Part shown: in pieces, positions 27,600 through 59,255 of the stretch
Position numbering within the stretch: position 1 is the stretch's first letter
Layout of the letters: the number at the start of each line of letters is the position of its first letter
Source: a virus
DNA: 64,000 bases
Virus record (IMG/VR): IMGVR_UViG_3300047553_000334
Coordinates: 1 to 64,000 of that record
Reading direction: 5' to 3' (one strand)
Translations under genes and position numbers: made by a program
Notes under the pieces: model-generated
Databases searched by the model: none
The model's input: only the letters and a program-made list of their open reading frames with translations
What the model was told of the DNA's origin: nothing

Positions 27600-27608
27600 T
27601 GTAAATTC

Positions 27609-28229: not shown

Positions 28230-28251
28230 TCTCTTTCCTTTGTTGGGACAA

Positions 28252-28279: not shown

Positions 28280-28333
28280 CCATTTGGTTGTTGTTGGCTT
28301 CTGTGTTGATATGGTTTCAGAAGCACTGCAATC

Positions 28334-28897
28334 TTACTCCTCGGTATCGTTTGCTGTCAATGCTTTGATAGTGATATTTTCTGTTGGATTCGAGATACAG
28401 AATACGTCAGGGTATTGCTCTACAAGCGTAAGTTGAATCTCTTTAGGTATCCTGCTTTTATACACCTTGTATTGCTGCACTACAGCATCACACGACAGTG
28501 GGATAACTTCAGCTGCTCTCTGCTCATCCATAATTGTAAACGACGCAGGGACTGTGCGGAAAGATACTTGACCCCACGGGCACTTCCATGTCTTTGCCTT
28601 GCCAGTGAGTTGTTTCTCTGCAAAGTCTGCAATTTGTTCGCCATAGCGACTTTTGAACCATTCGACTTTGCGTTCTTTCTCTCTGACAAGTTGCTTGCAT
28701 CGATCAACTACAGACTGCATAGCAAGTTGTTCTGCTTTAAGTTCTGTCTCATACTTGAGTAAGCGTTGCATTGCCAGAAGCACATCGTCTTCTGTGGTTA
28801 GTGTATCACCAAGCCAGCCATCGATAGGTCCAGCGTACTCACCTGTCTCGATGTCGTAATATGCGTCGCCGATAATATCAAACTTAGATTTGTCCAT
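28334..28897 (-). CDS. Gp157-like / Gam-like protein
   Basis: A 187-aa protein. A central coiled coil (residues 45-100, KYETELKAEQLAMQSVVDRC onward) is followed by a short beta segment, WGQVSFRTVPASFTI. This two-part layout is typical of the siphovirus Gp157 family, related in shape to Gam nuclease inhibitors. Such proteins are linked to phage recombination and to protection from host exonucleases. The next gene is an annealing protein, overlapping by 14 nt, which fits a recombination cassette. The family call is from memory of the pattern. Confidence 0.65.
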   Translation of the reverse strand: MDKSKFDIIGDAYYDIETGEYAGPIDGWLGDTLTTEDDVLLAMQRLLKYETELKAEQLAMQSVVDRCKQLVREKERKVEWFKSRYGEQIADFAEKQLTGKAKTWKCPWGQVSFRTVPASFTIMDEQRAAEVIPLSCDAVVQQYKVYKSRIPKEIQLTLVEQYPDVFCISNPTENITIKALTANDTEE

Positions 28898-29489
28898 TGA
28901 GTCCCTCTTCCTCTACTGCTAAAAATACTGCTTCTGCTTCTTCTGGTTTGTTGAATCCTTGTAGTACTTCTATAACTAACTTAAGGTTTTCTTCCGTAGT
29001 ATTTGTGTGTCCAGCAAGACGCTCAAACACACGTTTCATGTCAGATGGTGTAATGTCTTTACCCCAGATACGTTTGCACTCAAAAGCAAACTGCTTACCA
29101 GCAGTGAGTGTAGATGCCTTAGCTTGTTGTGGTGCATCAACAATACGTATGTCACCAGATGGTGTTATTGGTTCTTCTAGTTCCTGAGCAAACAATGTGC
29201 CATATCCACACAGAGCTAGTGCTCGTCCAATAGCGCCTGTCTCTGCTTTCTCTCGGTAATCTGCAAAGTGTTTCTCATGTTCAGTCTTGTGTGCTTTAGC
29301 AATTAGTCGTCCTGTTACATCCTGAATCTCAGCAGCAAATGTACAGTAGTCAGCGCCCGAAAGTTCGGGCACTGCATACGTCATGATTGTCCAGTCTGGA
29401 TGGTCTTCTCGAAACCATGCAATACGTGGAGCAACAGGCAAGTATTGCTTGCCTTTAAGATTTAGGAAATGGTCTTTGGGATTAAACAT
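28884..29489 (-). CDS. Rad52/Erf-like single-strand annealing protein
   Basis: A 201-aa protein. The start at 29489 has GGAG 6 nt upstream and an 8-nt overlap with the preceding stop, better than the in-frame start further up. Residues 15-100 hold YLPVAPRIAWFREDHPDW and then EKAETGAIGRALALCGYGT, the signature of the phage Rad52/Erf-type annealing superfamily. The C-terminal third is a mobile linker and a helical tail, probably for partner binding. It pairs complementary single strands during replication and recombination, and lies next to the Gp157-like and nuclease genes. Confidence 0.75.
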   Translation of the reverse strand: MFNPKDHFLNLKGKQYLPVAPRIAWFREDHPDWTIMTYAVPELSGADYCTFAAEIQDVTGRLIAKAHKTEHEKHFADYREKAETGAIGRALALCGYGTLFAQELEEPITPSGDIRIVDAPQQAKASTLTAGKQFAFECKRIWGKDITPSDMKRVFERLAGHTNTTEENLKLVIEVLQGFNKPEEAEAVFLAVEEEGLNGQI

Positions 29490-30156
29490 TCTCTTCTCCA
29501 AACAATTCTTCTTTTGCTTCATCACTAAGTGATGTAATAACAGACTTGCTAGTTGACGATGCCATCAACATGTCATAGATAGTCTCGTTGTTAATACCGT
29601 ATCTGTACTTATTACTTAGTACCCCAAGAGGCAGTGCTCCAAACATTGTGTAGTTATCTTTAGGTGAAAACATATCAACAACTTCATTGTGGTTACTGCC
29701 GATGATCGCACATATTTGTCCGTCAATATTGATAGTCTTGCAGTCTAGGTCATGCTTTGCATATTTTTGTGGATCTAACAAGACTGTAATCATGGTTGTC
29801 TCGTTAGGATATATGTGGTTGCCGTTAGCTGCGTATATGTTTGACGGTACGTAGTTATCACATCCGTACACATACATCGTTGTGCCGTTGTAACTAAGTG
29901 CTCTGAACTCATCTAGTACTGATTTCCATGTCATGATTTTTGGTTCGCGATTATTATTTGTAAAGTAATCAGGATCGTCGTTTACCTCTAGAAATATCTT
30001 GTCGCCGATGCGTGATGCAAACCACGACACCGTGTTGTCTTCTTCTGTATATGAAACATATGTTGTCTCGTACCATTTCTTTGGTATGTAAACATCCATT
30101 TGCTCTGGGTCTACAGGAAACAGGTAGCTCTTACGCCTACCGTTGTCTGAACTCAT
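29482..30156 (-). CDS. Hypothetical protein in recombination cassette
   Basis: A 224-aa protein, rich in Tyr, Asn and Asp, with a beta-rich N-terminal half and a short helical acidic tail (SDEAKEELFGEE). The ribosome site GAGGAG lies 10 nt before the ATG. It overlaps the upstream nuclease gene by 20 nt and the downstream annealing gene by 8 nt. I do not recognise a family or catalytic motif. Its place suggests a recombination accessory role. Confidence 0.65.
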   Translation of the reverse strand: MSSDNGRRKSYLFPVDPEQMDVYIPKKWYETTYVSYTEEDNTVSWFASRIGDKIFLEVNDDPDYFTNNNREPKIMTWKSVLDEFRALSYNGTTMYVYGCDNYVPSNIYAANGNHIYPNETTMITVLLDPQKYAKHDLDCKTINIDGQICAIIGSNHNEVVDMFSPKDNYTMFGALPLGVLSNKYRYGINNETIYDMLMASSTSKSVITSLSDEAKEELFGEENV

Positions 30157-30535
30157 TATTAATAAACTCCTCTATCTTTTTAATTGTTTGTTCGTTACCA
30201 ATCACTAGTTCCACGGTGTGTATTTCATTGAGAACTTCATCTAATGATCTACACACACGTGTTACTTGCATATCTGAATAAATCTGTTGTTTTGTTTGCA
30301 CTTTCCCTTTCTCTGTTTTCAATTCGATGCCAACACCAATAGGTATTTTCCACTTGGTATTGTGTACGTATAAGTCTGGTAGACCTATTGTGTTTCCTTG
30401 CCATCCTGTTGCGTAATGACGAGTACGACATGATGGACATGTAACTTTAGTTCTGGCTTTACCAGACTCAAATACTGTGTAACCTAGCAGTTGCAACGAT
30501 TGGACAACCAACTGTTGCAACTGCTTTTCTGTCAT
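30137..30535 (-). CDS. VRR-NUC nuclease with zinc-binding insert
   Basis: A 132-aa protein. I place the start at 30535 because its ATG overlaps the stop of a tiny upstream gene (ATGA); an earlier in-frame ATG at 30568 has no ribosome site. The nuclease core shows GLPDLY (51-56), GIELKTEKG (69-77) and Q84 in TKQQIYSD, the PD-ExK-Q triad of the VRR-NUC (PD-(D/E)xK) family. Between the first helix and the active site is CPSCRTRHY (33-41), a knuckle that may bind zinc with another ligand. Such proteins cut branched DNA. It lies beside the annealing protein. Confidence 0.8.
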   Translation of the reverse strand: MTEKQLQQLVVQSLQLLGYTVFESGKARTKVTCPSCRTRHYATGWQGNTIGLPDLYVHNTKWKIPIGVGIELKTEKGKVQTKQQIYSDMQVTRVCRSLDEVLNEIHTVELVIGNEQTIKKIEEFINNEFRQR

Positions 30536-30630
30536 CGATTGAAGTAATATGCTGCTGCGATTAACCATAACAATGCAAGTATAGGTGTGATGCAGCTATC
30601 TTGCAGTTTCTTCTTGTCGTCGTCGTTCAT
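30532..30630 (-). CDS. Tiny single-pass membrane protein (32 aa)
   Basis: Translating the minus strand gives MNDDDKKKLQDS, then a hydrophobic segment CITPILALLWLIAAAYYF, then NR and a stop. The charged N-terminus plus an 18-residue membrane helix are convincing despite the weak ribosome site. Its TGA overlaps the ATG of the nuclease gene (ATGA), and its start lies inside the end of the 188-aa gene. It is one of four such tiny membrane genes hidden in overlaps. The function is unknown. Confidence 0.55.
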   Translation of the reverse strand: MNDDDKKKLQDSCITPILALLWLIAAAYYFNR

Positions 30631-31162
30631 GTTGTAACTTTAAGAACTTCCAGCAAGTTACGACATGCGTTAGTGGTATTGATGTTGAGTTAATAGAATT
30701 GAGATACTTCATGGCAATTCTTGCTGATGATGCAGTCGGTGCTTGAAGTACCAATTTTAATATCTCAGGTGTAGATAGTATGTAATTTAAAGTTTGCTTT
30801 TCTCCTTGTGTTAATGCGTCATGCATAAACTCAGCATGACGTTCGTAATGATCAGGTTTGTGATTTGATTTTGTGTAATCAATTACAGTCACTAGCTTGT
30901 TATCTTTATAGACGTATCGTGCTAGTAATGCTGAGTACCAGCAACCGTTTAGTAATGAGATGATGTGCCTACGTGACCACGTTGGCCATTGGTTTGGTGG
31001 AAATATAGACTTCATCTCAACAACATCATTACGAGATGCACCAGACACAAATAGCTCTAGTATTAATATTGCTGTGTATTTGTTTGATACGTGCACACCA
31101 ACGTTATTGATGTGCACGTAATAAGCCACTGGCGCAATGTATTTCTTGCGATGTGATGCCAT
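30596..31162 (-). CDS. Hypothetical protein, helical
   Basis: A 188-aa basic protein starting on the last base of the preceding stop (TAATG). A central region (KYTAILILELFVSGASRNDVVEMK, in parts) suggests a helix-turn-helix-like fold, and the tail (LQHERRRQEETAR) is strongly basic. I do not recognise a family. A DNA- or RNA-binding role is possible. Confidence 0.6.
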   Translation of the reverse strand: MASHRKKYIAPVAYYVHINNVGVHVSNKYTAILILELFVSGASRNDVVEMKSIFPPNQWPTWSRRHIISLLNGCWYSALLARYVYKDNKLVTVIDYTKSNHKPDHYERHAEFMHDALTQGEKQTLNYILSTPEILKLVLQAPTASSARIAMKYLNSINSTSIPLTHVVTCWKFLKLQHERRRQEETAR

Positions 31163-31572
31163 TAGAATCTAGGCTTGTATTTACCAGATAACCGTGCCAT
31201 GCAGTGACCACACTTCCAAGGTGGTGTCCACTCACCACTGAGGAATGCGTCTACAATATCAACAACCTTACCTTTTGGGTATTGGCTCCAATCCTTGTCA
31301 TTTGCGTTCTTAAATGTCTTCCATACAAAATCTTCTTCAATGTCGTAGATATTATCTAATGCTTCTAAGTTCACAGCGTATTCCTCCATAGAGGGTAGCT
31401 TTATGAAATCATTGGGATCTACTTTGAATGAAATAATCTTTAACTTCCATGATGGCCACGACAGCGTTACTATATTTGCGTTTGTAACTGTTACTTCTAG
31501 CTTTGACCAACCAGCTTGATACTCACTGGTGACAGCCATCATCCTGATGATTTTCTCGATATCGCCTAACAT
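31162..31572 (-). CDS. Hypothetical protein with C-terminal CxxC
   Basis: A 136-aa protein. The N-terminal half is beta-rich and the last 25 residues contain WKCGHCMARLSGKY, a CxxC pair that could bind metal with another chain. It is the first gene after the terminator at 31593-31628 and is coupled to the next gene by TAATG. Family and role are unknown. Confidence 0.6.
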   Translation of the reverse strand: MLGDIEKIIRMMAVTSEYQAGWSKLEVTVTNANIVTLSWPSWKLKIISFKVDPNDFIKLPSMEEYAVNLEALDNIYDIEEDFVWKTFKNANDKDWSQYPKGKVVDIVDAFLSGEWTPPWKCGHCMARLSGKYKPRF

Positions 31573-31592
31573 AATTCTCCTTGTGTAAAAAG

Positions 31593-31628
31593 TTTGTGGA
31601 GCCTGAAATGCGTTTTAGGCTCCACAAA
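31593..31628 (-). terminator. Rho-independent terminator candidate
   Basis: Perfect 12-bp stem TTTGTGGAGCCT / AGGCTCCACAAA with a 12-nt loop, followed in the minus direction by CTTTTT. It stands between the genes ending at 31667 and starting at 31572. A promoter-like motif lies just upstream at 31653-31665, so it could also act as an attenuator for that start site. Confidence 0.8.
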
Positions 31629-31652
31629 AGCATGCAAAATACTGTGTATAGT

Positions 31653-31665
31653 ATACCGTAGGTAA
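31653..31665 (-). promoter_or_regulatory. Copy of the TACGGTAT motif, minus strand
   Basis: Minus-strand sequence TTACCTACGGTAT, followed by ACTATAC. It matches the motif before tRNA-Leu at 11 of 13 positions or better. It lies in the only sizeable gap of the minus-strand operon, just upstream of the terminator hairpin. A start here would place the hairpin in the leader. It could be a phage promoter or the binding site of a regulator. Confidence 0.45.
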
Positions 31666-31666
31666 T

Positions 31667-32164
31667 CTACTCACAAGTACATTTGTGTTCCCAGTTCTCG
31701 CACTGAACACACGTTTCAGCACCCATAAGATGAAGGTCATCATCTTCTAGGTCATCATCTGATCGTTGCTTGTGGCTGTATCCTTTTGGACCTGCGTAGA
31801 TATCACCAGCAAACATCATGCCGGGTTCAGCGTAACGGCAGTAAAACTCAAGATCAGGGAACATGTCTGACATAGTCTGTAGCCATATGTCAGCCGGACC
31901 CCACGCTGTATCAAAGCCAATAACAATGTGACCTTCTTTGAAGTCTAGGTAGCATGTGTCACAAGCTCCCCACTTAGTACCCCAGTTATTATATTGCCAT
32001 TCGACATTGCCATAGCCATTCTCATCTAACGGTTCTGGCACAGACTTATTAAAGTCTAGTACTGACATGCTTGTCTCATAATGTGTAGTGTGCAACTCAG
32101 CCCAAGCAGACACTTTGTCTGCTGGGCCAGTGATTGTCAATTCATTCATACACCAATTAGGCAT
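31667..32164 (-). CDS. DUF1281/YubB-like protein
   Basis: A 165-aa protein beginning MPNWCMNELTITG, with WGTKWGACD and FDTAWGPADIWL further on. This is the signature of the DUF1281 (YubB-type, ferredoxin-like) family found in phages and plasmids. The C-terminus has an acidic run and CVQCENWEHKCTC, a four-cysteine cluster probably binding zinc. Family members have no settled function. It ends 2 nt before a promoter-like motif. Confidence 0.75.
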   Translation of the reverse strand: MPNWCMNELTITGPADKVSAWAELHTTHYETSMSVLDFNKSVPEPLDENGYGNVEWQYNNWGTKWGACDTCYLDFKEGHIVIGFDTAWGPADIWLQTMSDMFPDLEFYCRYAEPGMMFAGDIYAGPKGYSHKQRSDDDLEDDDLHLMGAETCVQCENWEHKCTCE

Positions 32165-32175
32165 TGTGTTATTCC

Positions 32176-32511
32176 CTATCCGTAAACTAGTTCACCAAAA
32201 CATATCTCTTGTAACATTGTGTCAATGACATCTTGATCTACTTGTTGCTCTTCTTCAAACGAGCGATCTCCAATTAACCATGCTTTTTGCAACCATGTCA
32301 GCACGTCAAGAGAAGATATTGTATGCACCTCCTCTTCTTCATCATGAATATCTATATGGAACAATGTTTTTGGATCATCAAAACCAATCCAGCTGGCATG
32401 CCATTTAACAACCCATTCACAGTGCCGGATACCTTCAGTGATTTGGTCATACCAAAACTCTCGATTAATATCACCTACTACCCACTTAATATGTGTGTCA
32501 CTTGCTTGCAT
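32176..32511 (-). CDS. Hypothetical acidic protein
   Basis: A 111-aa acidic protein with a Trp-rich N-terminal half (HCEWVVKWHASWIGF) and EEEE near residue 60. No family recognised. The start overlaps the upstream gene by 14 nt. Acidic, aromatic small early proteins of this kind often bind and block host factors, but nothing here proves that. Confidence 0.6.
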   Translation of the reverse strand: MQASDTHIKWVVGDINREFWYDQITEGIRHCEWVVKWHASWIGFDDPKTLFHIDIHDEEEEVHTISSLDVLTWLQKAWLIGDRSFEEEQQVDQDVIDTMLQEICFGELVYG

Positions 32512-32791
32512 TTTTTAACTCCTGTAATGTATTCCAAATCCTGTCCCAATTTGTGCCAAAGTTAGCGTCAAATCCTTCGTGTAGTTCATTGACTACGTCA
32601 GGCCATTTATCTATGTGTTTGATTATCTGACGGACAATCTCATTGTATGAAGGCAAATGGTCTTTTGCTTCACCAACTACAAAATCCCATGGCCCCCATA
32701 CTTCAATGTAAAACTCCGGGTATTTCTCCCGGAGTTCACGCAGCTCTGTTTCAAACGCATTATCGCGTTTTGTCCATTCTTCTTCTGTCAT
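32498..32791 (-). CDS. Hypothetical protein
   Basis: A 97-aa protein. The start at 32791 overlaps the preceding stop (TAATG) and has GGGGAGAAG just upstream; an earlier in-frame ATG at 32806 is part of that ribosome site. Helical, with a Trp-Asp-rich end. No family recognised. Confidence 0.6.
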   Translation of the reverse strand: MTEEEWTKRDNAFETELRELREKYPEFYIEVWGPWDFVVGEAKDHLPSYNEIVRQIIKHIDKWPDVVNELHEGFDANFGTNWDRIWNTLQELKNASK

Positions 32792-33213
32792 TAATCTTCT
32801 CCCCATCCATCTGGTTGCAGTAGTGAGCCATCATCATACAAGTCTTGACCGCTGTACATATCTGTCCATTCACTGTATGTACAGTCATAGATGTACTCAA
32901 ACATAGCGTCATTGAACTCGTCGATGTTTCGCTCATGATACGTAGATGCAACAAGTGCACAGAACTTCTCGATCTCATCACTTGTTGGTCTGTCAATGTT
33001 TAATTGCTCGACAGCTTTGTCAATGAACTTGATGACGCTTCTGTCGTCATACACGACGCTGACATCCGTAAACAACATTTTGCCCACACGTGACATCAAC
33101 TCTACACCAATGCACGGGGAGAGAAACTCCCCGTCTTCTGTGTAGTGCTGATCACGTGCATAATCGTAGTGGTCAGTTGACCATTCTTCGTACTCACATA
33201 CTGAATAAAACAT
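32791..33213 (-). CDS. Hypothetical acidic protein
   Basis: A 140-aa acidic protein rich in Asp, Glu and Tyr, preceded by GAGGTAA at good spacing and ending in TAATG overlap with the next gene. It has no cysteine cluster, membrane segment or catalytic motif that I recognise. Predicted helical in the middle. Confidence 0.65.
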   Translation of the reverse strand: MFYSVCEYEEWSTDHYDYARDQHYTEDGEFLSPCIGVELMSRVGKMLFTDVSVVYDDRSVIKFIDKAVEQLNIDRPTSDEIEKFCALVASTYHERNIDEFNDAMFEYIYDCTYSEWTDMYSGQDLYDDGSLLQPDGWGED

Positions 33214-33246
33214 ATTGTGTTACCTCGTGTTTATTTGTTTGTTTAA

Positions 33247-34140
33247 TTAAACCCACGCAGCTGCACTGCCATGGGCGCGAATGACAACATGACTGTCGCC
33301 ATCACATTGGAGAGATGCAGGACAACCTACACAGGTTGTATGCATTGGTAGCATATTGCGATACGCTCGCATCTCATTGATGAACGGGTCGCTTGGGCAC
33401 TGCTTCATACCCTTGCTGTAGGCTACGTGCCGACGATTGACGTAGTCATGCTCAGGTAGAACTGTAAACGTACCCCAGCCAGCTTGCTCTGCCTCGTACT
33501 GGTCAGTGTAGTTGTCGCATGACGCTTGTAGCACACCCTTGAATGGTTGAGCTAACTGCATGCGCCATTGGTGTGTGTAGCCACGATGGCCAAGGCTGTA
33601 GCGTAGCAGGTCACCCCAGACAGGAAATGGCACGGCTACAGGATCACCATATGAACCAATACGTGTCTCCTTACCAGCAACAATTTGTATGGTTGCAGCG
33701 ACAGTGCTAGACACAACAGGTATGTTGCCGCGTTGGAATGACTCCCAGATTGCAGTGACACCCTTGCCAATATTGACGTAGCACGTACGCACAAGCTTGA
33801 CTTTGCCATTGACAATGTGCCTCTTCCAACCCTTGCGATGTACACATTTGCCACAGATGCAGTCGTCAATCATAAAGTCAATGGCGTGTTGAGGATGGAT
33901 ATCACGCATGATGATATAAGTCTGCAACATGTCACCAGTCTTGATGTTGTAATCCTCTGGGTTGTACTGGCAGTTGGACATCACAGCAATGATAGGGTGG
34001 CGTCGATCAAGTTGTGATGGCCCATTGTAGAAGCAGTACGAGTTGTACTTCGGCTTCATATGCTTGCCGTTAGTTACGTTGGTGAAAAGGGCTGGATTTG
34101 CATCTAGCCCAAACTTGTTGAGATATTCTTTAGCTGTCAT
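33247..34140 (-). CDS. Conserved phage protein with Cys-rich motifs (DUF7227-like)
   Basis: A 297-aa protein. The central motif CICGKCVHRKGWKRH (about residues 94-108) and the following CYVNIGKGVTAIWESFQRG are shared by a conserved tailed-phage family (I recall the label DUF7227, unverified). A second cysteine group, CVGCPASLQCDG, lies near the C-terminus. Both pairs may hold metal. It starts in ATGA overlap with the gene above. It is the longest gene of the unknown early block and the easiest anchor for comparisons. Confidence 0.75.
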   Translation of the reverse strand: MTAKEYLNKFGLDANPALFTNVTNGKHMKPKYNSYCFYNGPSQLDRRHPIIAVMSNCQYNPEDYNIKTGDMLQTYIIMRDIHPQHAIDFMIDDCICGKCVHRKGWKRHIVNGKVKLVRTCYVNIGKGVTAIWESFQRGNIPVVSSTVAATIQIVAGKETRIGSYGDPVAVPFPVWGDLLRYSLGHRGYTHQWRMQLAQPFKGVLQASCDNYTDQYEAEQAGWGTFTVLPEHDYVNRRHVAYSKGMKQCPSDPFINEMRAYRNMLPMHTTCVGCPASLQCDGDSHVVIRAHGSAAAWV

Positions 34141-34517
34141 TTTGTTACTCCATCATTCCAAAACCAATATTTACTGTATTTGTTGTCGTCTTTCTCAATA
34201 ATCTCACATATGTAATGCGCCTCCTCTTCACTGATACCATCCCAGCCAATGTTTACACCGACGGTGCTAAGGTCATCGCATTCGCCTTCACACTTCTTGC
34301 CTACACAGTCAAGTGCAAAACCACACTCAATACGGAATGTCCACGTGTAGTGTGGATCGACCTCATCAAGCACGTCAATGCTGTACGTACGATGTGCATT
34401 AACAGGACAGTCTTTCCACTCACTGTTATGCCATTGCAACTCCCATATGGTTGCTGCAGTTTTCATAATCATCTCAGCAGCTGCATGGTAATACTCTTCT
34501 TTGTATCGCTTATTCAT
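34137..34517 (-). CDS. Hypothetical protein
   Basis: A 126-aa protein with a helical N-terminus and a beta-rich middle containing CGFALDCVGKKCEGEC, a cluster of four cysteines. ATGA overlap with the downstream gene. No family recognised. A small metal-binding fold is possible. Confidence 0.6.
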   Translation of the reverse strand: MNKRYKEEYYHAAAEMIMKTAATIWELQWHNSEWKDCPVNAHRTYSIDVLDEVDPHYTWTFRIECGFALDCVGKKCEGECDDLSTVGVNIGWDGISEEEAHYICEIIEKDDNKYSKYWFWNDGVTK

Positions 34518-34911
34518 AATGACTCTTTGTTGTTACTTGGTTTTCGCCCGGCATCGATTCTATTGTCATGTAGTATGTTGATGGTCCGTCATATCCGTCA
34601 TCACTAACGTCTTCACCACGCCGATCAGCGCGTTCCATGTGACGCAGACAATCTTCGCCATCAGCTATTTTTGCTTCGTTATTTAATTGCTCACAACGTT
34701 CCTGTAGTTTTTTCATTAGCATTTCTGCTGCCTCACGAGACGAGCATTTGCAATACTCTTTTAGTATGTGTAGATAACCCCACCATCCTCCTTCCTCTGG
34801 TCCACCGTAGTAAGATTCGCATTGATAAATAGAAAGGTAGCACTCTTGTGCTACCTCGCGGTCCTCTATAATTTCATTCCATGCTTGCAGGAATATGTTG
34901 TCATCACTCAT
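34510..34911 (-). CDS. Hypothetical acidic protein
   Basis: A 133-aa acidic protein. I use the ATG at 34911 because GAGGAGG lies 6 nt upstream; an earlier ATG at 34926 belongs to that site. It has an 8-nt overlap with the upstream gene. Helical, with several Cys and Trp but no recognised domain. Confidence 0.6.
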   Translation of the reverse strand: MSDDNIFLQAWNEIIEDREVAQECYLSIYQCESYYGGPEEGGWWGYLHILKEYCKCSSREAAEMLMKKLQERCEQLNNEAKIADGEDCLRHMERADRRGEDVSDDGYDGPSTYYMTIESMPGENQVTTKSHYE

Positions 34912-35287
34912 AACGATCCTCCTCATTTGATTTTTTGTATATTGCTTTTCCGTACTTTACTGGCATGACTCGTTCACCATGGCATTTGTAACAAGCCACG
35001 TCGTACACGCCCTCAAAGTAGTCCTCTTCGTAACCACCGTAATACATATCTTCAGCTGTTAGACCATCGCAATCAACAGAAGGATTAACGTGATGGCCTT
35101 TACCATCACATGTATCGCAGGCTTCATATTTGAATTTGTACCAAACTTGTTTATTGGTCTTACTGTCATACTTGTGCCTCACTAGCATCTTGCGTTCATC
35201 AATATCAATCCACCAACGATCACGACCACCGCGTACACGGTGGTCGTTTTGATAGTTGCGGTCTTCCAAGCTAAACCATTCACTCAT
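34904..35287 (-). CDS. DnaJ-type zinc-finger protein
   Basis: A 127-aa protein. The motif CDTCDGKGHH (57-66) and a second CYKCHGERV near residue 100 form two CxxCxGx(G/E) knuckles like half of the DnaJ cysteine-rich domain, set in an acidic chain. There is no J domain. It could be a host chaperone mimic or a nucleic-acid-binding zinc protein. Confidence 0.65.
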   Translation of the reverse strand: MSEWFSLEDRNYQNDHRVRGGRDRWWIDIDERKMLVRHKYDSKTNKQVWYKFKYEACDTCDGKGHHVNPSVDCDGLTAEDMYYGGYEEDYFEGVYDVACYKCHGERVMPVKYGKAIYKKSNEEDRYE

Positions 35288-35582
35288 ATTGTTTCTTCAG
35301 CTCCTTGTATGTTTTACCTGTGTTCTCAAATGCAAGTGAGCAGAACACAATCTCTTGATGGCGTTCGCTATACATGCGGTGATTACTACCATCGTAGTAG
35401 TACTCAACACCACGACGTAGTCCTACACAGCCAAGCTCTTCTGCACATGCACGGCGTAGTTTGATTGGGCTAGGAGGTGTACGATACACCTCATAGCGTT
35501 CTCCTTGTTTGTTGTTTGGTGTGTTGTCCCACATGCAACCCCACACCTCAAACTTATACACAACAGGGTTTTCTGCTTTCAT
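35280..35582 (-). CDS. Hypothetical protein
   Basis: A 100-aa protein in 8-nt overlap with the downstream gene and ATGA overlap with the upstream one. It is beta-rich in the first half and helical and basic at the end. Unknown family. Confidence 0.55.
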   Translation of the reverse strand: MKAENPVVYKFEVWGCMWDNTPNNKQGERYEVYRTPPSPIKLRRACAEELGCVGLRRGVEYYYDGSNHRMYSERHQEIVFCSLAFENTGKTYKELKKQYE

Positions 35583-35821
35583 TTTGTCTCCTCAATTATT
35601 GTGATGGTCACAACGTCATCTTCCCACTCGATGAACGAGTCATCACATTCAAGGCAATACTTAGCTCGCTTGTCGTTGTTGACCCAAGCTTTGAGTATGC
35701 CAAGAAAGTACTTCTTGTCTTTCTTGGACGCACCGCTCATGCGGTAATAGTGACGTGCCCAGCGCAACATGCCGGGAGCGTTGAACATTGGGACTGATAC
35801 TAAAGCGATTCTTGTTTTCAT
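35579..35821 (-). CDS. Hypothetical protein
   Basis: An 80-aa basic-then-acidic protein. The start at 35821 shares ATGA with the preceding stop; an earlier in-frame start at 35878 would lie inside the upstream gene. It has a Cys pair (CLEC). No family recognised. Confidence 0.55.
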   Translation of the reverse strand: MKTRIALVSVPMFNAPGMLRWARHYYRMSGASKKDKKYFLGILKAWVNNDKRAKYCLECDDSFIEWEDDVVTITIIEETK

Positions 35822-36057
35822 ATTTTGTTTCCATTCATGTGATGATCGATGAGGGCTTGTTGATAGCCATACAGCCATGTCATGGCCTCACTAAACCCAC
35901 AGGCTCTTGCTCCACAGTCGGCTGTAAAGTAATCACCGTACATACCTTTTGGTGCAAACTTGTAGCGTGTAACGCCATCGCCTGGGCTGTATGTAAATAC
36001 GTCTAGGTTGCAGTGTTTAAGCACTGCATTCATGTGTTCTTTATCTCGCTTTGTCAT
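35818..36057 (-). CDS. Hypothetical protein
   Basis: A 79-aa protein, basic at the start and rich in Gly and Tyr, with CGARACG near residue 50. It abuts the 36058 gene with no gap. No family recognised. Confidence 0.55.
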   Translation of the reverse strand: MTKRDKEHMNAVLKHCNLDVFTYSPGDGVTRYKFAPKGMYGDYFTADCGARACGFSEAMTWLYGYQQALIDHHMNGNKI

Positions 36058-36321
36058 TTAAATACCTCTTAGTGTTCTTGCTTCTGCGCTTGTAACAACT
36101 CGTACAATTGAGTCGATTACATCTTGTGGGCAGTCTCCTTCTTCAAGGACTGCCATGACAGCTTCCATAGCTGCCTCAAGGATTTCTTCCTGTGTATAGT
36201 CTTCCTCTGGGTCAAAGTAATCCCAAAGGCTCACGTCTGGTAAGTCATTGGTTGTTAATCCAATGTGGTCAATCATAAGCTGATCGACGACAGCGCGGAA
36301 TGTTTGAAGAGTGTATTTCAT
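36058..36321 (-). CDS. Hypothetical acidic protein with pseudoknot leader
   Basis: An 87-aa very acidic helical protein (DYFDPEEDYTQEEILEAAMEA). The leader holds the pseudoknot at 36343-36371 and then AAAGGAC, 6 nt before the ATG. No family recognised. The charge could suit DNA mimicry, as in other phage inhibitors. Confidence 0.6.
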   Translation of the reverse strand: MKYTLQTFRAVVDQLMIDHIGLTTNDLPDVSLWDYFDPEEDYTQEEILEAAMEAVMAVLEEGDCPQDVIDSIVRVVTSAEARTLRGI

Positions 36322-36342
36322 TTGTTTGTCCTTTGTTTGGTT

Positions 36343-36371
36343 GTGCGTTGTTGGTGAGACGCACCCCTCAC
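36343..36371 (-). promoter_or_regulatory. H-type RNA pseudoknot, copy A (5' UTR)
   Basis: Minus-strand RNA order: GUGAG (S1), GG, GUGCGU (S2), CUCAC (S1), CAACA, ACGCAC (S2). S1 is 5 bp, S2 is 6 bp, loop 1 is 2 nt and loop 3 is 5 nt, which is sterically ideal for an H-type fold. It ends about 14 nt before the ribosome site of the 36321 gene. Copies B and C keep the fold with covarying pairs. Confidence 0.8.
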
Positions 36372-36378
36372 ATTGTCA

Positions 36379-36864
36379 CTAGGCGAGTTCGACTAGGTCG
36401 CTGTTGTCACGTGCAGTCGATGCCACACACTTATCGAACTGTGGCATTGAAGTAGCGACGTACTTCCAGAAGTCGAACGGAACCGCAGGAAGCTCAATGT
36501 CTTTGATGATTACATTGAACGCCTTGATAGCCTCCTGAATTTGGTCATCAAGTGTCTCAGATGTAGTCTTGACAGTGAACGTACGCAGCTTTCTACTGGA
36601 TGGATCAGTGCGTTGGTTCTCGTCTTCGTACATATTCAGTGATACATCGATCTTGGCTACGACTCGGTCAAGCAATGCCAAGTCTCGTGTTGCCACATCA
36701 ATACGGAGATGAAAATTGAGGGCAACGCGATGACCATTGATGTTGAACTCTTTGTCATGGTGTGTTGTCTCATAATAATCGTATGTATTGCCGATGCCTC
36801 CGCTAATACGGCGAATGTCATCAGAGAGACGAGAGACGAAATAGTCAAACGTAGGTGTAGACAT
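36379..36864 (-). CDS. Hypothetical protein with pseudoknot leader
   Basis: A 161-aa protein of mixed alpha/beta character with an extended middle region. It is preceded by pseudoknot copy B and an AAAGAGA-type ribosome site. It shows no recognised family, metal site or membrane segment. Confidence 0.6.
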   Translation of the reverse strand: MSTPTFDYFVSRLSDDIRRISGGIGNTYDYYETTHHDKEFNINGHRVALNFHLRIDVATRDLALLDRVVAKIDVSLNMYEDENQRTDPSSRKLRTFTVKTTSETLDDQIQEAIKAFNVIIKDIELPAVPFDFWKYVATSMPQFDKCVASTARDNSDLVELA

Positions 36865-36884
36865 AGTTGTTATGTTCTCTTTCT

Positions 36885-36913
36885 ATGCGTTGTTAGTGAG
36901 ACGCATCCCTCAC
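36885..36913 (-). promoter_or_regulatory. H-type RNA pseudoknot, copy B (5' UTR)
   Basis: Minus-strand order: GUGAG, GG, AUGCGU, CUCAC, UAACA, ACGCAU. Compared with copy A, one S2 pair changes from G-C to A-U on both sides, so pairing is preserved. Loop lengths are identical. It lies between the stop at 36922 and the 36864 gene. Confidence 0.8.
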
Positions 36914-36921
36914 ATAAAACA

Positions 36922-37176
36922 TTAGATAGCGATGTAGCAGTTTTTGATTTCTTTGATGCCAGCTTCTTTGATGATGTGATTACGTACATCAGCAACTTGC
37001 GATTCGTCTAGATATTGAATAGCCTCGCCAAGCCAAAGCAAGACATAGTTGTTCTCATTACGTAGGTCATCAAAAACTTTTGTCAATCTGTCGTATTGAC
37101 CTTGCGTTATTAGATTGTTATTAAATAGTGACTCAATAAGTATCTCGCCACTAATAACTTCAAACGGCATTTTCAT
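36922..37176 (-). CDS. Hypothetical protein
   Basis: An 84-aa protein, helical, with ILIESLFNNNLITQGQY suggesting a small helix-turn-helix-like or docking fold. ATGA overlap with the upstream gene. No family recognised. Confidence 0.55.
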   Translation of the reverse strand: MKMPFEVISGEILIESLFNNNLITQGQYDRLTKVFDDLRNENNYVLLWLGEAIQYLDESQVADVRNHIIKEAGIKEIKNCYIAI

Positions 37177-37445
37177 TTGATTAGATTCTCTTTCTTTTTT
37201 GTTTGTGTTGGTTGTCCAGTTTTGTTATCAAACCAGACAAGCATGTACGGCTCATCAATGTATGTGCCAATTTTTCTACGTGTTATTCGTACGTGCATTA
37301 CAGGTGTGGTCTCTTGCTGGATGATAACTCTATATCGAGACCAAGTCTTAGCCCATGCTGCAGTTCTCCAAACAATAGGAGGGCCGAATTCTCGGCCCTC
37401 AAAGTCATAACATTGACAAAGGTAACTATATGGATAGTTAGCCAT
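37173..37445 (-). CDS. Hypothetical basic protein
   Basis: A 90-aa basic beta-rich protein (RRKIGTYIDEPYMLVWF). 8-nt overlap with the upstream gene. No family recognised. Confidence 0.55.
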   Translation of the reverse strand: MANYPYSYLCQCYDFEGREFGPPIVWRTAAWAKTWSRYRVIIQQETTPVMHVRITRRKIGTYIDEPYMLVWFDNKTGQPTQTKKKENLIK

Positions 37446-37761
37446 TACTTGTATCTACCTCATCCCAACCTTTAGGGTTGACTGGTATTTCCTGTAGTGT
37501 TGCCATCCACTTATCAAACGCAAGCAGTTCTTCGTGTGTTGGCTCATCGTTAATCCAGTCATCAAAGCCCATGACATTGCGCGTGTCATGTGGGACATGC
37601 GCATCTGCAAAGTCAAGGATCTCTGCAAGAAACATGCGAGCTTGCCCGTCAAGAAACTGTTGAAACTGCGGAACTAACTTGATGAGTCGCTCAATGCCTC
37701 CACCCGGATGAATGTGAAGGTATGCAAATCTCAAGATGAGGATTTTGTAGTGTTTAGTCAT
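37438..37761 (-). CDS. Hypothetical protein
   Basis: A 107-aa protein with a His-rich middle and an acidic end. ATGA overlap with the upstream gene. No family recognised. Confidence 0.55.
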   Translation of the reverse strand: MTKHYKILILRFAYLHIHPGGGIERLIKLVPQFQQFLDGQARMFLAEILDFADAHVPHDTRNVMGFDDWINDEPTHEELLAFDKWMATLQEIPVNPKGWDEVDTSNG

Positions 37762-38129
37762 TTGTTATCGTTCTCCATTTCTTTCTGCATAAATGTGATG
37801 AATTGTGTTGCCCACAACCGGAGTGCTTCTGCGTTAGACTCAAACGTCCATTGCTCATGGATATTTGCTGCAGCAAGTCTAATTTGTCCATATGCGTTGT
37901 CAACAAGGTCAACATCAACACGGACTGTCACGTCTTGATATGGCCTTTCTCGATACAACTCAATGGTCATGGTCTGAGTCAGTTTTGTTGTACGACTAAT
38001 TCTGGTGAAACTGTGTATGCCTCCACGCACTGTCATGTCAGTGAATGGATCAGTTGATTTACCTCTTAGCAATTCATACAGAGATGAAGCTACTTCTTGT
38101 GGGGACTCGTAACGATTATTCAGATTCAT
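37758..38129 (-). CDS. Hypothetical protein
   Basis: A 123-aa protein. The start at 38129 has AAAGGAT at good spacing; the further upstream in-frame start has none. Its N-terminus overlaps a tiny membrane gene by 14 nt. Mixed alpha/beta with no recognised domain. Confidence 0.6.
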   Translation of the reverse strand: MNLNNRYESPQEVASSLYELLRGKSTDPFTDMTVRGGIHSFTRISRTTKLTQTMTIELYRERPYQDVTVRVDVDLVDNAYGQIRLAAANIHEQWTFESNAEALRLWATQFITFMQKEMENDNK

Positions 38130-38232
38130 TGTCAATCCTTTGTTGATACTCAGTAACTGAGTGAAAGAACCATCCAATCAAAAATAGAATGGATAGCAAT
38201 GCGATGAGAGTGCAAATGATTATTGCAATCAT
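38116..38232 (-). CDS. Tiny single-pass membrane protein (38 aa)
   Basis: Minus-strand translation gives a 20-residue hydrophobic run, IAIIICTLIALLSILFLIGW, right after the initiator Met, then FFHSVTEYQQRIDNESE. The ribosome site AGGA is 7 nt from the ATG. It overlaps the next gene by 14 nt. It is a convincing single-span membrane peptide of unknown role. Confidence 0.65.
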   Translation of the reverse strand: MIAIIICTLIALLSILFLIGWFFHSVTEYQQRIDNESE

Positions 38233-38243
38233 GATTCGTTCCT

Positions 38244-38348
38244 CAATAATAACGTTCTAATTATTATTGTTCAATGTAATGAGGGGTACAATTTTTATAC
38301 CCCTCTAGGGTACAAAATTTGAGGGGGCTAAATTTTATACCCCCTCAA
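38244..38348 (-). terminator. Cluster of three perfect hairpins; terminator region
   Basis: Three inverted repeats fill the only large gap of this operon part: 9 bp at 38244-38269 (CAATAATAA), 8 bp at 38281-38305 (GAGGGGTA) and 9 bp at 38319-38348 (TTGAGGGGG). The last two share a TATAAAA-type loop and look duplicated. In the minus direction the third is followed by ATTTTG. They would end transcription after the 38352 gene or slow it before the membrane gene. Confidence 0.6.
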
Positions 38349-38351
38349 TTT

Positions 38352-38690
38352 TTATGCCATGTTTCGCACTCGATTGATGATGTTGAGTGCCCGGCAGAGG
38401 ACAACTTCCTCGCTTGGTGTGACCTTCACCTTGTCGAGTACACGCCTCCACAGGCGGTTGCGCCAGCGTGTGCTATTGGTGTACGTGCTGTAGGTAGCAG
38501 GTCGTACGTCGATGAGATCCGCCAATACCTTGACTGGTAGTGCGTCCTCAAGAAGCATCATGCACATTTCCTCTTTGGGAGAAACTTGCACGTCCTCAAT
38601 GAGTCCTGCTTCACGCAGGGCGTTGAACTGCTCGTACTTGATACCAGCAGCTCGTAAAGCGTCAATTTGTTCTTGTGTGAATGGTTTCAT
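38352..38690 (-). CDS. Hypothetical protein
   Basis: A 112-aa helical protein with an amphipathic N-terminal half and a basic C-terminal half (YTNSTRWRNRLWRRVLDKV). It may bind nucleic acid. ATGA overlap with the upstream gene; the stop overlaps a terminator tail. No family recognised. Confidence 0.6.
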   Translation of the reverse strand: MKPFTQEQIDALRAAGIKYEQFNALREAGLIEDVQVSPKEEMCMMLLEDALPVKVLADLIDVRPATYSTYTNSTRWRNRLWRRVLDKVKVTPSEEVVLCRALNIINRVRNMA

Positions 38691-38914
38691 AGTTCACTCC
38701 TAAGTTTGTTTACCAACATACCAACGGGATTCTGCATTTTCTCAGCAGCGTGTGCCCCAAATCTGAGGATATCCTCATCATTGAGGTTGTTAAACCCAGA
38801 CATAGCTTCGTTTACGTAGTCCTCTTGGGAGTATTGTGCCCAGAGGAGAATGTCTGTGTCATACATCCACAGTACGTACGTCTTTATCGCGTCTAACGCT
38901 TGCTCTCTTGTCAT
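38687..38914 (-). CDS. Hypothetical protein
   Basis: A 75-aa helical protein, coupled on both sides by ATGA overlaps. No recognised domain. Confidence 0.55.
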   Translation of the reverse strand: MTREQALDAIKTYVLWMYDTDILLWAQYSQEDYVNEAMSGFNNLNDEDILRFGAHAAEKMQNPVGMLVNKLRSEL

Positions 38915-39120
38915 TTGATACCTAACCTTTTGTTTTTGCGTGTCTCACGATCGTCGTGAAACGTCTCGACGAGAAGTGTGTCAAGCTCCTCAACAAGTTG
39001 TCTAAGATGATTCTCCGGCGCTGGAAAAGTCACCCCATGTAATCGATATGTTTTATGCATAGCGCTTGAGACCTCAGCGATCTTGGCTTGCAGCTCATTG
39101 ATTCTTTGTTGATTTTTCAT
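38911..39120 (-). CDS. Small coiled-coil protein downstream of a ribozyme
   Basis: A 69-aa protein with a helical coiled coil (QQRINELQAKIAEVSSAM) and a basic end. I place the start at 39120: the longer open frame would overlap the upstream gene and the ribozyme. GGA lies 8 nt upstream. A type II hammerhead ends 20 nt before it. No family recognised. Confidence 0.5.
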   Translation of the reverse strand: MKNQQRINELQAKIAEVSSAMHKTYRLHGVTFPAPENHLRQLVEELDTLLVETFHDDRETRKNKRLGIK

Positions 39121-39140
39121 GGTTTGTATCCATATGACCT

Positions 39141-39200
39141 GACTCATCAGTGCAAGGCGGTCAACTCTTACAGACTTCTCCGCATGGGAGAAGTTTCGTC
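39141..39200 (-). ncRNA. Hammerhead ribozyme, type II (HHR-b)
   Basis: Minus-strand order: GAC, GAAA (39197-39194), a 7-bp stem III hairpin CUUCUCC / GGAGAAG (39193-39175), UC, a 6-bp stem I hairpin UGUAAG / CUUGCA (39172-39151, one G-U pair), CUGAUGA (39150-39144), GUC. All invariant core bases are present. Cleavage falls after the C at 39173. Stem II is open, 3 bp (GAC/GUC), perhaps longer through an internal loop. It begins right after the stop codon of the 39201 gene. Confidence 0.85.
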
Positions 39201-39653
39201 TTACAAGAGTCCGGTTGCTTCCATACTCTTGAACACCTGCAAGTGGTAGATGCTCCGGTATGTGCCGTACCACATGTGGAAGCCACAGTTCTTGATCGTC
39301 AACAACACATCCTTCTTGAATGGGAAGTTGTGCTCAGGTTGTACGACCTTAGCCTCCTTGCCAGTATGGGCAAAGAACATGGCGTTGATTTGCTCTGCCT
39401 CATCACGGTCAATGAAGAGGCAAAGCATCTGCTCTTTGCTGTCCTTCTCCATAGTGACAACATACTCACCGTCTGTTGTCTGGAGAACGTACGGCCACTG
39501 GGGGAAGTCAAGCATCTCATTGACATCGATGTTGTTCTCATCGGCATACTCGCGTACGCAAAGATGGAAGTTAGTCATCTCTTTCTTGACCTCCTTGGCA
39601 AGCCAAGCGGTTTCGATACGTTTGATCAGATTAGGTTTCTTGTTTGTTTTCAT
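39201..39653 (-). CDS. Hypothetical protein
   Basis: A 150-aa protein with a basic helical N-terminus and a mixed alpha/beta body containing HMWYGTYRSIYHLQ near the end. Only 9 nt separate it from the Csx16-like gene. Its stop codon abuts the type II hammerhead. No family recognised. Confidence 0.6.
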   Translation of the reverse strand: MKTNKKPNLIKRIETAWLAKEVKKEMTNFHLCVREYADENNIDVNEMLDFPQWPYVLQTTDGEYVVTMEKDSKEQMLCLFIDRDEAEQINAMFFAHTGKEAKVVQPEHNFPFKKDVLLTIKNCGFHMWYGTYRSIYHLQVFKSMEATGLL

Positions 39654-39662
39654 TTGTTTCTC

Positions 39663-39992
39663 CTAGTAGTAATTGACACCGACTTCGTCGCGGATGTCGT
39701 TCCATGCCTCAATAGTCATGACTTTGTAACCAACGAGGCTTGCACCGCACTGATCCATTTGCTCTGGAGTCAGCTCCTTGCCTCGCAGTTCCAATGGCAG
39801 GTTAGGTAAATCCACCGACCACACCTCACGGGCATGGCAGGCGAGGTGCATCGGGATGACACCGATGACCTTGCGTCCTCGCATCAGGTCAGGTGTTGCG
39901 TGGGCAACGACTGTTACATCCGGGCTAACGTGCCCGTGCAGTACTAGCCATTGCACCAAGCCAATATGTCGAGAGATAACTATTGTTTCCAT
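39663..39992 (-). CDS. Csx16-like (VVA1548 family) protein, candidate ring nuclease
   Basis: A 109-aa protein, close to the Csx16 family length. I chose the ATG at 39992 over the long upstream extension, which would run through a pseudoknot. Visible family landmarks are IVISRHIGLVQW (4-15), KVIGVIPMHLA (about 41-51) and LPLELRGKELTPEQM (about 65-79), in the same order as Csx16/VVA1548 proteins. Csx16 is a type III CRISPR-linked family proposed to degrade cyclic oligoadenylate messengers. In a phage such a protein would blunt type III immunity, as DUF1874/AcrIII-1 does. The leader holds a hammerhead and a pseudoknot. Family assignment is by pattern; the activity is inference. Confidence 0.75.
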   Translation of the reverse strand: METIVISRHIGLVQWLVLHGHVSPDVTVVAHATPDLMRGRKVIGVIPMHLACHAREVWSVDLPNLPLELRGKELTPEQMDQCGASLVGYKVMTIEAWNDIRDEVGVNYY

Positions 39993-40020
39993 AGTTTCTT
40001 TGTTTCCTTGTGTTTGAAGT

Positions 40021-40052
40021 ATGCGTTGTTCACCGAGTCGCACCCCTCGGTG
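40021..40052 (-). promoter_or_regulatory. H-type RNA pseudoknot, copy C (5' UTR of Csx16-like gene)
   Basis: Minus-strand order: CACCGAG, GG, GUGCGA, CUCGGUG, AACA, ACGCAU. S1 grows to 7 bp with a new sequence, while the GG loop, the AACA loop and the S2 pairing (4 Watson-Crick plus G-U) are kept. It ends about 15 nt before the AAGGAAAC ribosome site of the Csx16-like gene. Confidence 0.78.
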
Positions 40053-40125
40053 AGTGAGATATGGCCACGTTGGCACCACTCACTCGGTCAATGCGGTTAC
40101 GCCTCTTCGTAACCTGTGATATCTG

Positions 40126-40182
40126 ACGTGTTTCGGCGTGACTGCCTCATCAGCCTATAGGAATCACCCTATAGGTACACGT
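40126..40182 (-). ncRNA. Hammerhead ribozyme, type III (HHR-a)
   Basis: Minus-strand order: ACGUG (stem III, 40182-40178), UA, an 8-bp stem I CCUAUAGG / CCUAUAGG with loop GUGAUU, CUGAUGA (40153-40147), a 3-bp stem II GGC / GCC with loop AGUCAC, GAAA (40134-40131), CACGU (stem III). Every invariant core base is present. Cleavage is after the A at 40176. Loops I and II are complementary (GUGA/UCAC), fitting the known loop-loop contact. It lies in the leader of the Csx16-like gene. Confidence 0.9.
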
Positions 40183-40214
40183 TGGGGTGGCACGTGAGCA
40201 CCACCCCGTACTAC

Positions 40215-40325
40215 TTAGTGACCGTATCGATGCATCGGAAGCGTTGACAGCATCCAATACATAAGCACTAAGCCTCCGACGATAATGACGGCAGTGATGC
40301 CGTCCGTGATGAACTTCTTCTTCAT
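40215..40325 (-). CDS. Tiny single-pass membrane protein (36 aa)
   Basis: Minus-strand translation gives MKKKFITDG, a hydrophobic span ITAVIIVGGLVLMYWML, then STLPMHRYGH. The ribosome site GGTGG lies close to the ATG, and the ATG overlaps the preceding stop (ATGA). Positive charges before the span predict an N-in orientation. The function is unknown. Confidence 0.65.
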   Translation of the reverse strand: MKKKFITDGITAVIIVGGLVLMYWMLSTLPMHRYGH

Positions 40326-40561
40326 CTTCCACCCACCTTTCTTGCAAGGGCTACCACTTCAGGGTCGGTGTCGCCACCAACCAAGCGAGCAAGCCCCATC
40401 ATGTGTCCCTCCAGCTCGCGGTAGCTGAAGATGTGCACGTTGACCATCATCTCCCCGCAAGCGGACTTAATGGAGATGGATGTCTTTGAAACGCTTGTCG
40501 GCGTAGAGATGGTGAAGGACCACTTTCGGTTTGCGGTCATGAAGGCGCCATTAAATTCCAT
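40322..40561 (-). CDS. Hypothetical protein
   Basis: A 79-aa protein with a beta-rich N-terminal half (RKWSFTISTPTSVSKTSIS) and a helical end. The ribosome site AAAGGAAAC lies 11 nt from the ATG. It is the first gene after the type III hammerhead at 40590-40647. No family recognised. Confidence 0.55.
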   Translation of the reverse strand: MEFNGAFMTANRKWSFTISTPTSVSKTSISIKSACGEMMVNVHIFSYRELEGHMMGLARLVGGDTDPEVVALARKVGGR

Positions 40562-40589
40562 GGCTCGTTGTTTCCTTTGTTTTTTGGTT

Positions 40590-40647
40590 ACGTGTTTCGC
40601 CTAGACTGGCCTCGTCAGCTCATTGCCATCACACAATGAGGACACGT
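40590..40647 (-). ncRNA. Hammerhead ribozyme, type III (HHR-c)
   Basis: Minus-strand order: ACGUG (stem III), UC, a 7-bp stem I CUCAUUG / CAAUGAG with loop UGUGAUGG, CUGACGA (variable position 7 = C), stem II GGCC...GGC, GAAA, CACGU. Stem III is identical to that of HHR-a. Stem II needs one bulged G to pair (GCC/GGC next to the loop AGUCUA), the only deviation. It lies between the terminator at 40658-40673 and the 40561 gene. Confidence 0.75.
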
Positions 40648-40657
40648 TTAAAAGGGT

Positions 40658-40673
40658 GGGGGCTTACGCCCCC
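40658..40673 (-). terminator. Terminator candidate overlapping a stop codon
   Basis: 6-bp GC stem GGGGGC / GCCCCC with loop GTAA, followed in the minus direction by ACCC and TTTT. It overlaps the TAA of the 40664 gene and lies just before HHR-c. Confidence 0.5.
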
Positions 40674-40951
40674 TTGGTGAAGGTGCAGTTGTCGTACTCG
40701 AAACTGCACGGTGTACCGTTCCACTGCCGGGAAATCCAGTACGCCCCTTCGATGTCGATTGGCTTGATGGTGTGCGAGCGACTTGCGCAAGCAAGCATCT
40801 GAAGCAGATATCCGTCTGTCCAGTTAGACATCTGATTCACGAACGTCTTACCGTCTTCGACTACGTATGGACCACGCGTAGTGGTCAGCGTCCACGTACA
40901 TACTACGTACGGTTCACTTGGGGTTGATTGTGTGTGTGTTGCGAATGACAT
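40664..40951 (-). CDS. Hypothetical protein
   Basis: A 95-aa protein, mixed alpha/beta, with several Trp and Tyr. Ribosome site AAAGGAT upstream. It is flanked by terminator hairpins on both sides, so it forms its own transcription unit. No family recognised. Confidence 0.6.
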   Translation of the reverse strand: MSFATHTQSTPSEPYVVCTWTLTTTRGPYVVEDGKTFVNQMSNWTDGYLLQMLACASRSHTIKPIDIEGAYWISRQWNGTPCSFEYDNCTFTKGA

Positions 40952-40986
40952 GGCTCATTATCCTTTATGTGTTTTTTTGAAAAATA

Positions 40987-41015
40987 AAGCACCCGGTATC
41001 GTGTACCGGGTGCTT
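40987..41015 (-). terminator. Rho-independent terminator
   Basis: Perfect 12-bp stem AAGCACCCGGTA / TACCGGGTGCTT with a 5-nt loop, followed in the minus direction by TTTATTTTTC. It lies directly after the stop of the first early gene (41023-41364). It is the strongest terminator in the window. Confidence 0.9.
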
Positions 41016-41022
41016 CCGGGGA

Positions 41023-41364
41023 CTATTCGTCCCCTTCGTCCCCAGCCATGGCTGTCGCCATCGCCGTCTTGGTCATCGCCTTCAACGATGCCATGAATGG
41101 GTCGATTGGCTTGGCAGCCTTGACTGCCACTTCGAGATTCGCGAGTTGAGTACCGATTCTGTCCAGAACCAAGCGGTAACTATCGGCATCGGTTTGCCGC
41201 TTCCGGAAACCGACCGCATACACCGTCTGAATGGACTGCCAGCCCTTATTGATTGTATCTTCGGTCATTGGCAGACCGGTTGCGATGTGACCGGCGATAT
41301 CGCTTTCAAACTTGCGAATCGCATTCATCGCGGGTTCGAATATCACGGGTTGTTTTGTTGACAT
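41023..41364 (-). CDS. Hypothetical early protein
   Basis: A 113-aa helical protein, first gene of the minus-strand unit that leaves the divergent region. It has an alanine-rich C-terminal part and an acidic end (GDEGDE). Ribosome site AAAGGAAAC. The leader carries a hammerhead-like element. Its place suggests expression early in infection. No family recognised. Confidence 0.65.
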   Translation of the reverse strand: MSTKQPVIFEPAMNAIRKFESDIAGHIATGLPMTEDTINKGWQSIQTVYAVGFRKRQTDADSYRLVLDRIGTQLANLEVAVKAAKPIDPFMASLKAMTKTAMATAMAGDEGDE

Positions 41365-59250: not shown

Positions 59251-59255
59251 TTAAA

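Follow-up and report, generated by a model that had tools for sequence, protein, structure and literature searches.

A separate, mostly viral sequence branch of the Csx16 family, and a phage member of it as a candidate cA4 ring nuclease acting on type III CRISPR signalling

According to PMC12409355, the cellular Csx16 that was tested is a cA4-specific ring nuclease, which yields linear products and leaves cA6 undegraded, and its modelled fold is CARF-like. The same paper counts Csx16 in 2 of 28,114 phages, and these two are probably the methanogen viruses Drs3 and PhiF3. AcrIII-2 (a viral SAVED protein) and phage Crn4b are virus-borne as well, and degradation of CRISPR cyclic oligoadenylates has been shown or proposed for them (PMC12751052 and PMC12830947); the former cites a published dispute over the anti-CRISPR action of natively expressed AcrIII-1. 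The kind of gene reported here, Csx16 in a phage, was thus known from two phages, and what is new is the branch to which it belongs, the spread of this branch in uncultivated viruses and its changed sequence.

The window is a stretch of 64,000 nucleotides, positions 1 to 64,000 of a 65,874-base virus record (IMG/VR IMGVR_UViG_3300047553_000334), and has the following features.

39663..39992, minus strand: csx16-like gene of the virus type, 109 aa; PF09652 62.6 bits against a cut-off of 25; on the virus side of the tree
40005..40009, minus strand: AAGGA, read from the sequence as a possible ribosome-binding site, 12 nt ahead of the csx16 ATG
39993..40321, minus strand: gap upstream of csx16, about 330 nt long, in whose sequence several short hairpins can be read
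39201..39653, minus strand: next gene downstream of csx16, 150 aa, starting 9 nt past the csx16 stop
25114..41364, minus strand: leftward gene block with replication genes, csx16 near its upstream end
25114-26484, minus strand: DnaB, in the leftward block
26886-27599, minus strand: O-like initiator, in the leftward block
28334-28897, minus strand: Gam-like gene, in the leftward block
30137-30568, minus strand: Holliday resolvase-like gene, in the leftward block
55173..61219, plus strand: terminase large subunit (TerL), portal and major capsid genes (phrog_38, phrog_156, phrog_212)

The csx16 gene was an intact open reading frame with an ATG at 39992 and a stop ending at 39663, and its translation contained all three Csx16 motifs, SRHIGLVQW (which fits SRHxGxxxW), VIGVIPMHLA and RGKELTPEQM. 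This confirmed the place, strand and motifs of the Csx16-like frame described in an earlier note on this DNA. A GTG at 40079 would open a longer frame; however, the family alignment begins at the ATG. In the upstream gap there was no Rfam match, and a possible frame for a 36-aa membrane peptide could be read from the sequence. A promoter scan found 2 sites where 3.8 were expected by chance. The 150-aa gene downstream was without a Pfam match and is probably co-transcribed with csx16.

The TerL, portal and capsid genes indicated a tailed phage, and together with the T7-like character of the portal match and a DnaB helicase match in the record they bore out the designation of the source as a phage. 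The earlier note had also placed the gene in an early operon without cas genes. Its position near the start of the leftward replication block agreed with this, early expression being suggested by the layout, and the type III RAMP profile PF03787 had 0 matches in the 65,874-base record. A search for relatives of the phage by DNA returned tRNAs and short stretches only, and the relatives of TerL were found at 28% in Rhizobium phages. The rightward block contained two very long open reading frames, 11570-24334 (4254 aa) and 47446-53826 (2126 aa).

The window protein is a real member of the PF09652 (Cas_VVA1548, or Csx16) family. Its match in the profile search of the virus record (E 1.9e-18) was far beyond chance and provided the profile match to Csx16 that had been proposed as a check; hmmscan of the protein gave 62.8 bits. 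PADLOC Csx16 models reached up to 62.9 bits, and PADLOC models of fusions between CARF effectors and Csx16 domains matched more weakly. The cut-off of the CRISPR-associated equivalog TIGR02620 of NCBIfam was missed (35.9 vs 46.35 bits), likely because the protein belongs to the virus branch of Csx16. Pfam at E 0.01 returned nothing besides PF09652, PF08960 (AcrIII-1/Crn2) being unmatched, and PHROGs gave no match. PF08960 also had 0 matches in the window's record and in the 50 of the 73 virus records that were searched.

By tblastn, matches among 50,697 phage records were confined to the methanogen viruses Drs3 (two records) and PhiF3, and six of 72,556 plasmid records matched. Five productive pattern scans of IMG/VR led to 72 different contigs in addition to the window (L010-L072, L075-L078, L082 and L107-L110; the loci L073, L074, L079-L081 and L083 repeat contigs already counted). 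The window protein by itself gave 2 stretches in IMG/VR, 0 of which were confirmed. An early alignment, A4, of the window with 21 viral and 2 plasmid sequences matched PF09652 in 24 of 24 rows at E 0.01. Two virus-type queries, L014 and L026, had no match in the 50,697 catalogued phages, so that surveys of such catalogues miss a branch present in 72 uncultivated contigs; L014 matched three plasmids. The neighbours of Csx16 were not shared among the IMG/VR contigs, the largest neighbour cluster comprising 4 loci, as one would expect if the gene were cargo that earns its keep in many viruses.

Several relatives had additional parts. A Cys-rich, zinc-ribbon-looking N-terminal stretch precedes the Csx16 domain in L013, L040 and L059, and the Csx16 frames of L017, L018, L024, L057 and L110 have long C-terminal extensions. 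On the Allomeiothermus silvanus plasmid pMESIL02 (L006:4998-7013), a 671-aa protein carries at its N-terminus a Csx16-like domain in which TQH replaces TRH, followed by a further Csx16-like stretch, with three tblastn places in all; PF03787 had no match in this plasmid.

In a tree of 90 rows, a branch of 100/95 parted the virus type from the CRISPR-locus type. On the virus side were 59 virus rows, the window, two MAG contigs (L084 and L085) and L007, an orphan gene from a plasmid of Deinococcus, and on the other side were 21 genome rows, the plasmid rows L004, L005, L008 and L009, and the methanogen viruses (L002 and L003). The window was the deepest row on the virus side, and the branch that would part it from the other virus rows was weak (91/65). 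Eight identical copies, three truncated sequences (L059, L070 and L082) and two odd ones (L050 and L051) were left out of the tree; the residue counts given below, from 92 rows, left out the identical copies and the truncated sequences. Recent capture from a host CRISPR locus is ruled out by the 100/95 branch, and the tree (81/43) is compatible with one viral origin that would join the methanogen viruses to the virus branch.

The two types also differed in the segment after GxLPxxLA (residues 48-58 of the window protein), which had 11 residues in 64 of 64 virus-type rows and 15 in 24 of 24 CRISPR-type rows; the window had 11 and the methanogen viruses had 15. The archaeal plasmid row L004 had 11 residues in this segment, yet was placed on the CRISPR side. 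Columns entered the tree only if 60% or more of the rows were filled, so that the four-residue gap should not have shaped its topology. In the virus type, changes were seen at W15, D40, R56, Y57, H/N59 and other positions that are fixed in the CRISPR type, but the window kept W15 and further CRISPR-like positions. Median identity was 47% within the virus branch and 31% between the virus and CRISPR types.

Most virus rows came from virus-type patterns, a bias of which the following shared-pattern and Pseudomonadota searches were independent. A pattern drawn from both types, [LI][PTS][PLA]ELRG[KRM]E, gave 22 stretches and 15 confirmed loci in IMG/VR, 15 of the 15 being of the virus type. With one more residue, it gave 68 stretches and 23 confirmed loci in 84,980 genomes; the tree put 21 of these with the CRISPR type and 2 with the virus type. 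In 398 Pseudomonadota genomes searched with a profile, 12 proteins exceeded the cut-off and every one of them was of the long CRISPR type, and a virus-type pattern gave 32 stretches in genomes with 0 confirmed (one pattern was used, against two in the viral scan). Judged from these sequences, virus-type Csx16 is a separate, mostly viral branch. It was not described in the full-text literature searched, preprints and most subscription papers lying outside that scope, and it had also been missed in the earlier note, whose recognition of a Csx16 in a phage otherwise stood.

PF03787 was over its cut-off in 20 of the 22 genomes reached through genomic Csx16 loci. The virus and plasmid records amounted to 78 (73 virus records including the window, 2 phage records and 3 plasmid records), and the profile was over its cut-off in 0 of 50 and 0 of 28 of these, many of the virus records being fragments. 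A match below the cut-off in the L018 record (IMGVR_UViG_3300037424_001387) corresponded to a type IV-B-like cassette at 11067-13418, about 2.4 kb downstream of Csx16, with Csf2-like, Csf3-like and CysH-like genes; the Csf2-like and Csf3-like matches were both under the curated cut-offs. A Csf2 search of the 78 records found none besides L018 (1 of 73 virus records).

Both MAG exceptions on the virus side lie in phage DNA. L084 is a provirus, in which a serine integrase (phrog_95), a repressor-like gene and phage-like recombination genes surround the Csx16 gene. Its start holds chromosomal-looking genes, putatively those for aspartate-semialdehyde dehydrogenase, dihydrodipicolinate synthase and a MiaA-like protein. 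In L085, a terminase gene (phrog_24361) is on the same short contig as Csx16. A Csx16 match was found in that MAG only among 379 genomes of its phylum, and likewise in the L084 MAG only among 10 genomes of its own. Another contig of the L084 MAG carried a type III-B locus with Cmr1, Cas10/Cmr2 (GGDD motif), Cmr3 and Cmr4, and with a Cas6-like gene below its cut-off; a Csx1-HEPN effector had no match in this MAG. It is one case, in a MAG that is possibly contaminated, of a virus-type Csx16 in a cell whose Cas10 seems competent to produce the signal. A gene for a phosphoribosyltransferase-like anti-phage protein (L127:3141-4127; NF053875, 380 bits) was next to the type III-B locus. Just upstream of the L084 Csx16 gene, a gene for 329 aa (L084:8985-9974) contained two degenerate Csx16-like stretches, the second of which (L125) matched PF09652 at 27.1 bits; the sequence reads as if the family had been triplicated there and had partly decayed.

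Models of the window protein (pLDDT 96.0) and of a CRISPR-type Csx16 as a control (pLDDT 95.6) had their main elements in the same order, and a helix was longer in the control at the place of the virus-type gap. R8, H9, G44, P47 and G71 were invariant in 92 of 92 aligned rows and R70 in all but one; among the 64 virus-type rows, H31 varied in 5. In the model, R8-H9 follows the first strand and precedes the first helix, which is also the place of Motif-I in Csx15 and Crn1 according to PMC13148439. The closest solved structure to the window model was 2j6b of the AcrIII-1 family (Z 5.2, rmsd 2.5, 73 residues), followed by Csx1-Crn2 through its Crn2 part (Z 4.3) and by Cam1 (Z 4.2 and 4.1). A methyltransferase followed at Z 3.9, and AcrIII-2 (9r8s) was low at Z 2.9. 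The control model matched Tn3-family resolvases first (Z 5.9), then 2j6b (4.7) and Crn1 (4.6); with resolvases in that place and Z values as modest as these, the fold alone decides little. At a threshold of E 0.001, neither Foldseek with the window model nor a search of a viral structure library returned anything, and no solved structure matched the protein by sequence. The models are thus suggestive, but not decisive, of a relation in fold to 2j6b, Crn2 and Cam1, proteins of cyclic oligoadenylates, and a relation to the AcrIII-1-family fold is likewise reported for cellular Csx16 in PMC12409355. The earlier note had expected a fold different from that of DUF1874/AcrIII-1. This expectation was unsupported and, as worded, was set aside, 2j6b coming first at a modest Z.

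We consider it probable that the viral Csx16 is a cA4 ring nuclease that would switch off host type III CRISPR signalling, and hence a candidate anti-CRISPR like AcrIII-1. The activity is proposed from that of cellular Csx16 (PMC12409355), from the invariant residues and from the fold. The expected substrate is cA4, rather than the range cA3-cA6 named in the earlier note, because the cellular enzyme was shown to be cA4-specific in that source. The gene, presumably expressed early, would give a ring nuclease of small size and Rossmann/CARF-like fold that probably forms a dimer. When the type III Cas10 of the host makes cA4, the viral protein would bind it, with the R8-H9 loop as a putative part of the ligand or catalytic site, and cut it to linear pieces; cA4-activated effectors of the host would then stay off. 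In favour of this role count also the occurrence of the gene in many virus contigs with differing neighbours, the contrast in PF03787 between genomes and virus or plasmid records, and the L084 provirus in a MAG with a type III-B locus; against it count the missed TIGR02620 cut-off, the modest fold matches with resolvases first for the control, the failure to find a Csx1-HEPN effector in the L084 MAG, and the dispute on AcrIII-1. Since the virus type departs from the CRISPR type at many positions that are fixed in the latter, there is a fair chance that the speed or specificity of cA4 cleavage has changed. A wider proposal, which we put forward tentatively and hold to be possible though doubtful, is that the viruses' own branch has been reshaped, with a lost helix turn and changed pocket residues, and would be faster than Csx16 of CRISPR loci or have another messenger specificity. 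Spread over many unrelated uncultivated phages, it would form a further anti-signalling family beside AcrIII-1 and AcrIII-2, possibly reaching beyond type III CRISPR.

The same changes could instead mean that the ring nuclease has shifted to another messenger (cA3, cA6, or one of the CBASS or Thoeris type) and acts on other signalling defences besides or instead of type III. The absence of four helix residues throughout the virus type (64/64 vs 24/24), the differences at W15, D40, R56, Y57, H/N59 and other positions, and the fact that most virus records are without a hint of type III would fit such a shift. However, the core of R8, H9, G44, P47 and G71 is common to both types, cA4 is bound by the best structural matches and is the specific substrate of the tested cellular Csx16 (PMC12409355), and the window itself has kept W15 along with further CRISPR-like positions; we therefore regard a shift of messenger as unlikely. 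It is also conceivable that the protein is a sponge, binding cA4 but leaving it uncut. PMC13148439 describes non-enzymatic binders of this sort among Csx15 proteins, and pocket positions are changed in the virus type. Nevertheless, almost every row of a diverse branch retains R8-H9 and R70, and the same paper argues that a sponge is ill-suited to type III signalling, in which much messenger is made, which makes this explanation improbable.

That the gene is a leftover of a host CRISPR locus, neutral and with no role in infection, might be suggested by its being a single gene in the window phage. Against this, the gene is intact and on the virus side of the 100/95 branch, and this side has a diversity of its own and has been kept open in many viruses, which excludes a recent pick-up; we give a leftover very little credence.

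The Csx16 of type III loci (PF09652/TIGR02620) belongs to the same Pfam family as the window protein and has the same invariant residues and order of elements. The window protein differs from it in being four residues shorter after GxLPxxLA, in its changed fixed positions, in its separate branch and in falling under the TIGR02620 cut-off, and it is viral and without type III genes. The proteins of Drs3 and PhiF3 resemble it as virus-encoded members of PF09652, annotated Cas_VVA1548/Csx16, but have the 15-residue segment of the CRISPR type and lie on the other side of the 100/95 branch. AcrIII-2, a 230-aa SAVED protein, and Crn4, with a fold unrelated to known ring nucleases, are of other families. 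AcrIII-1/Crn2 (DUF1874, STIV_B116-like, PF08960) shares with the window protein the role of a viral cA4 ring nuclease, proposed in the latter case, and provides in 2j6b the solved structure closest to its model, whereas the two are without a sequence match. Should virus-type proteins indeed cleave cA4, viruses would interfere with type III signalling more widely than has been counted, and the cellular and viral Csx16 could be compared as an off-switch and the weapon into which it was turned.
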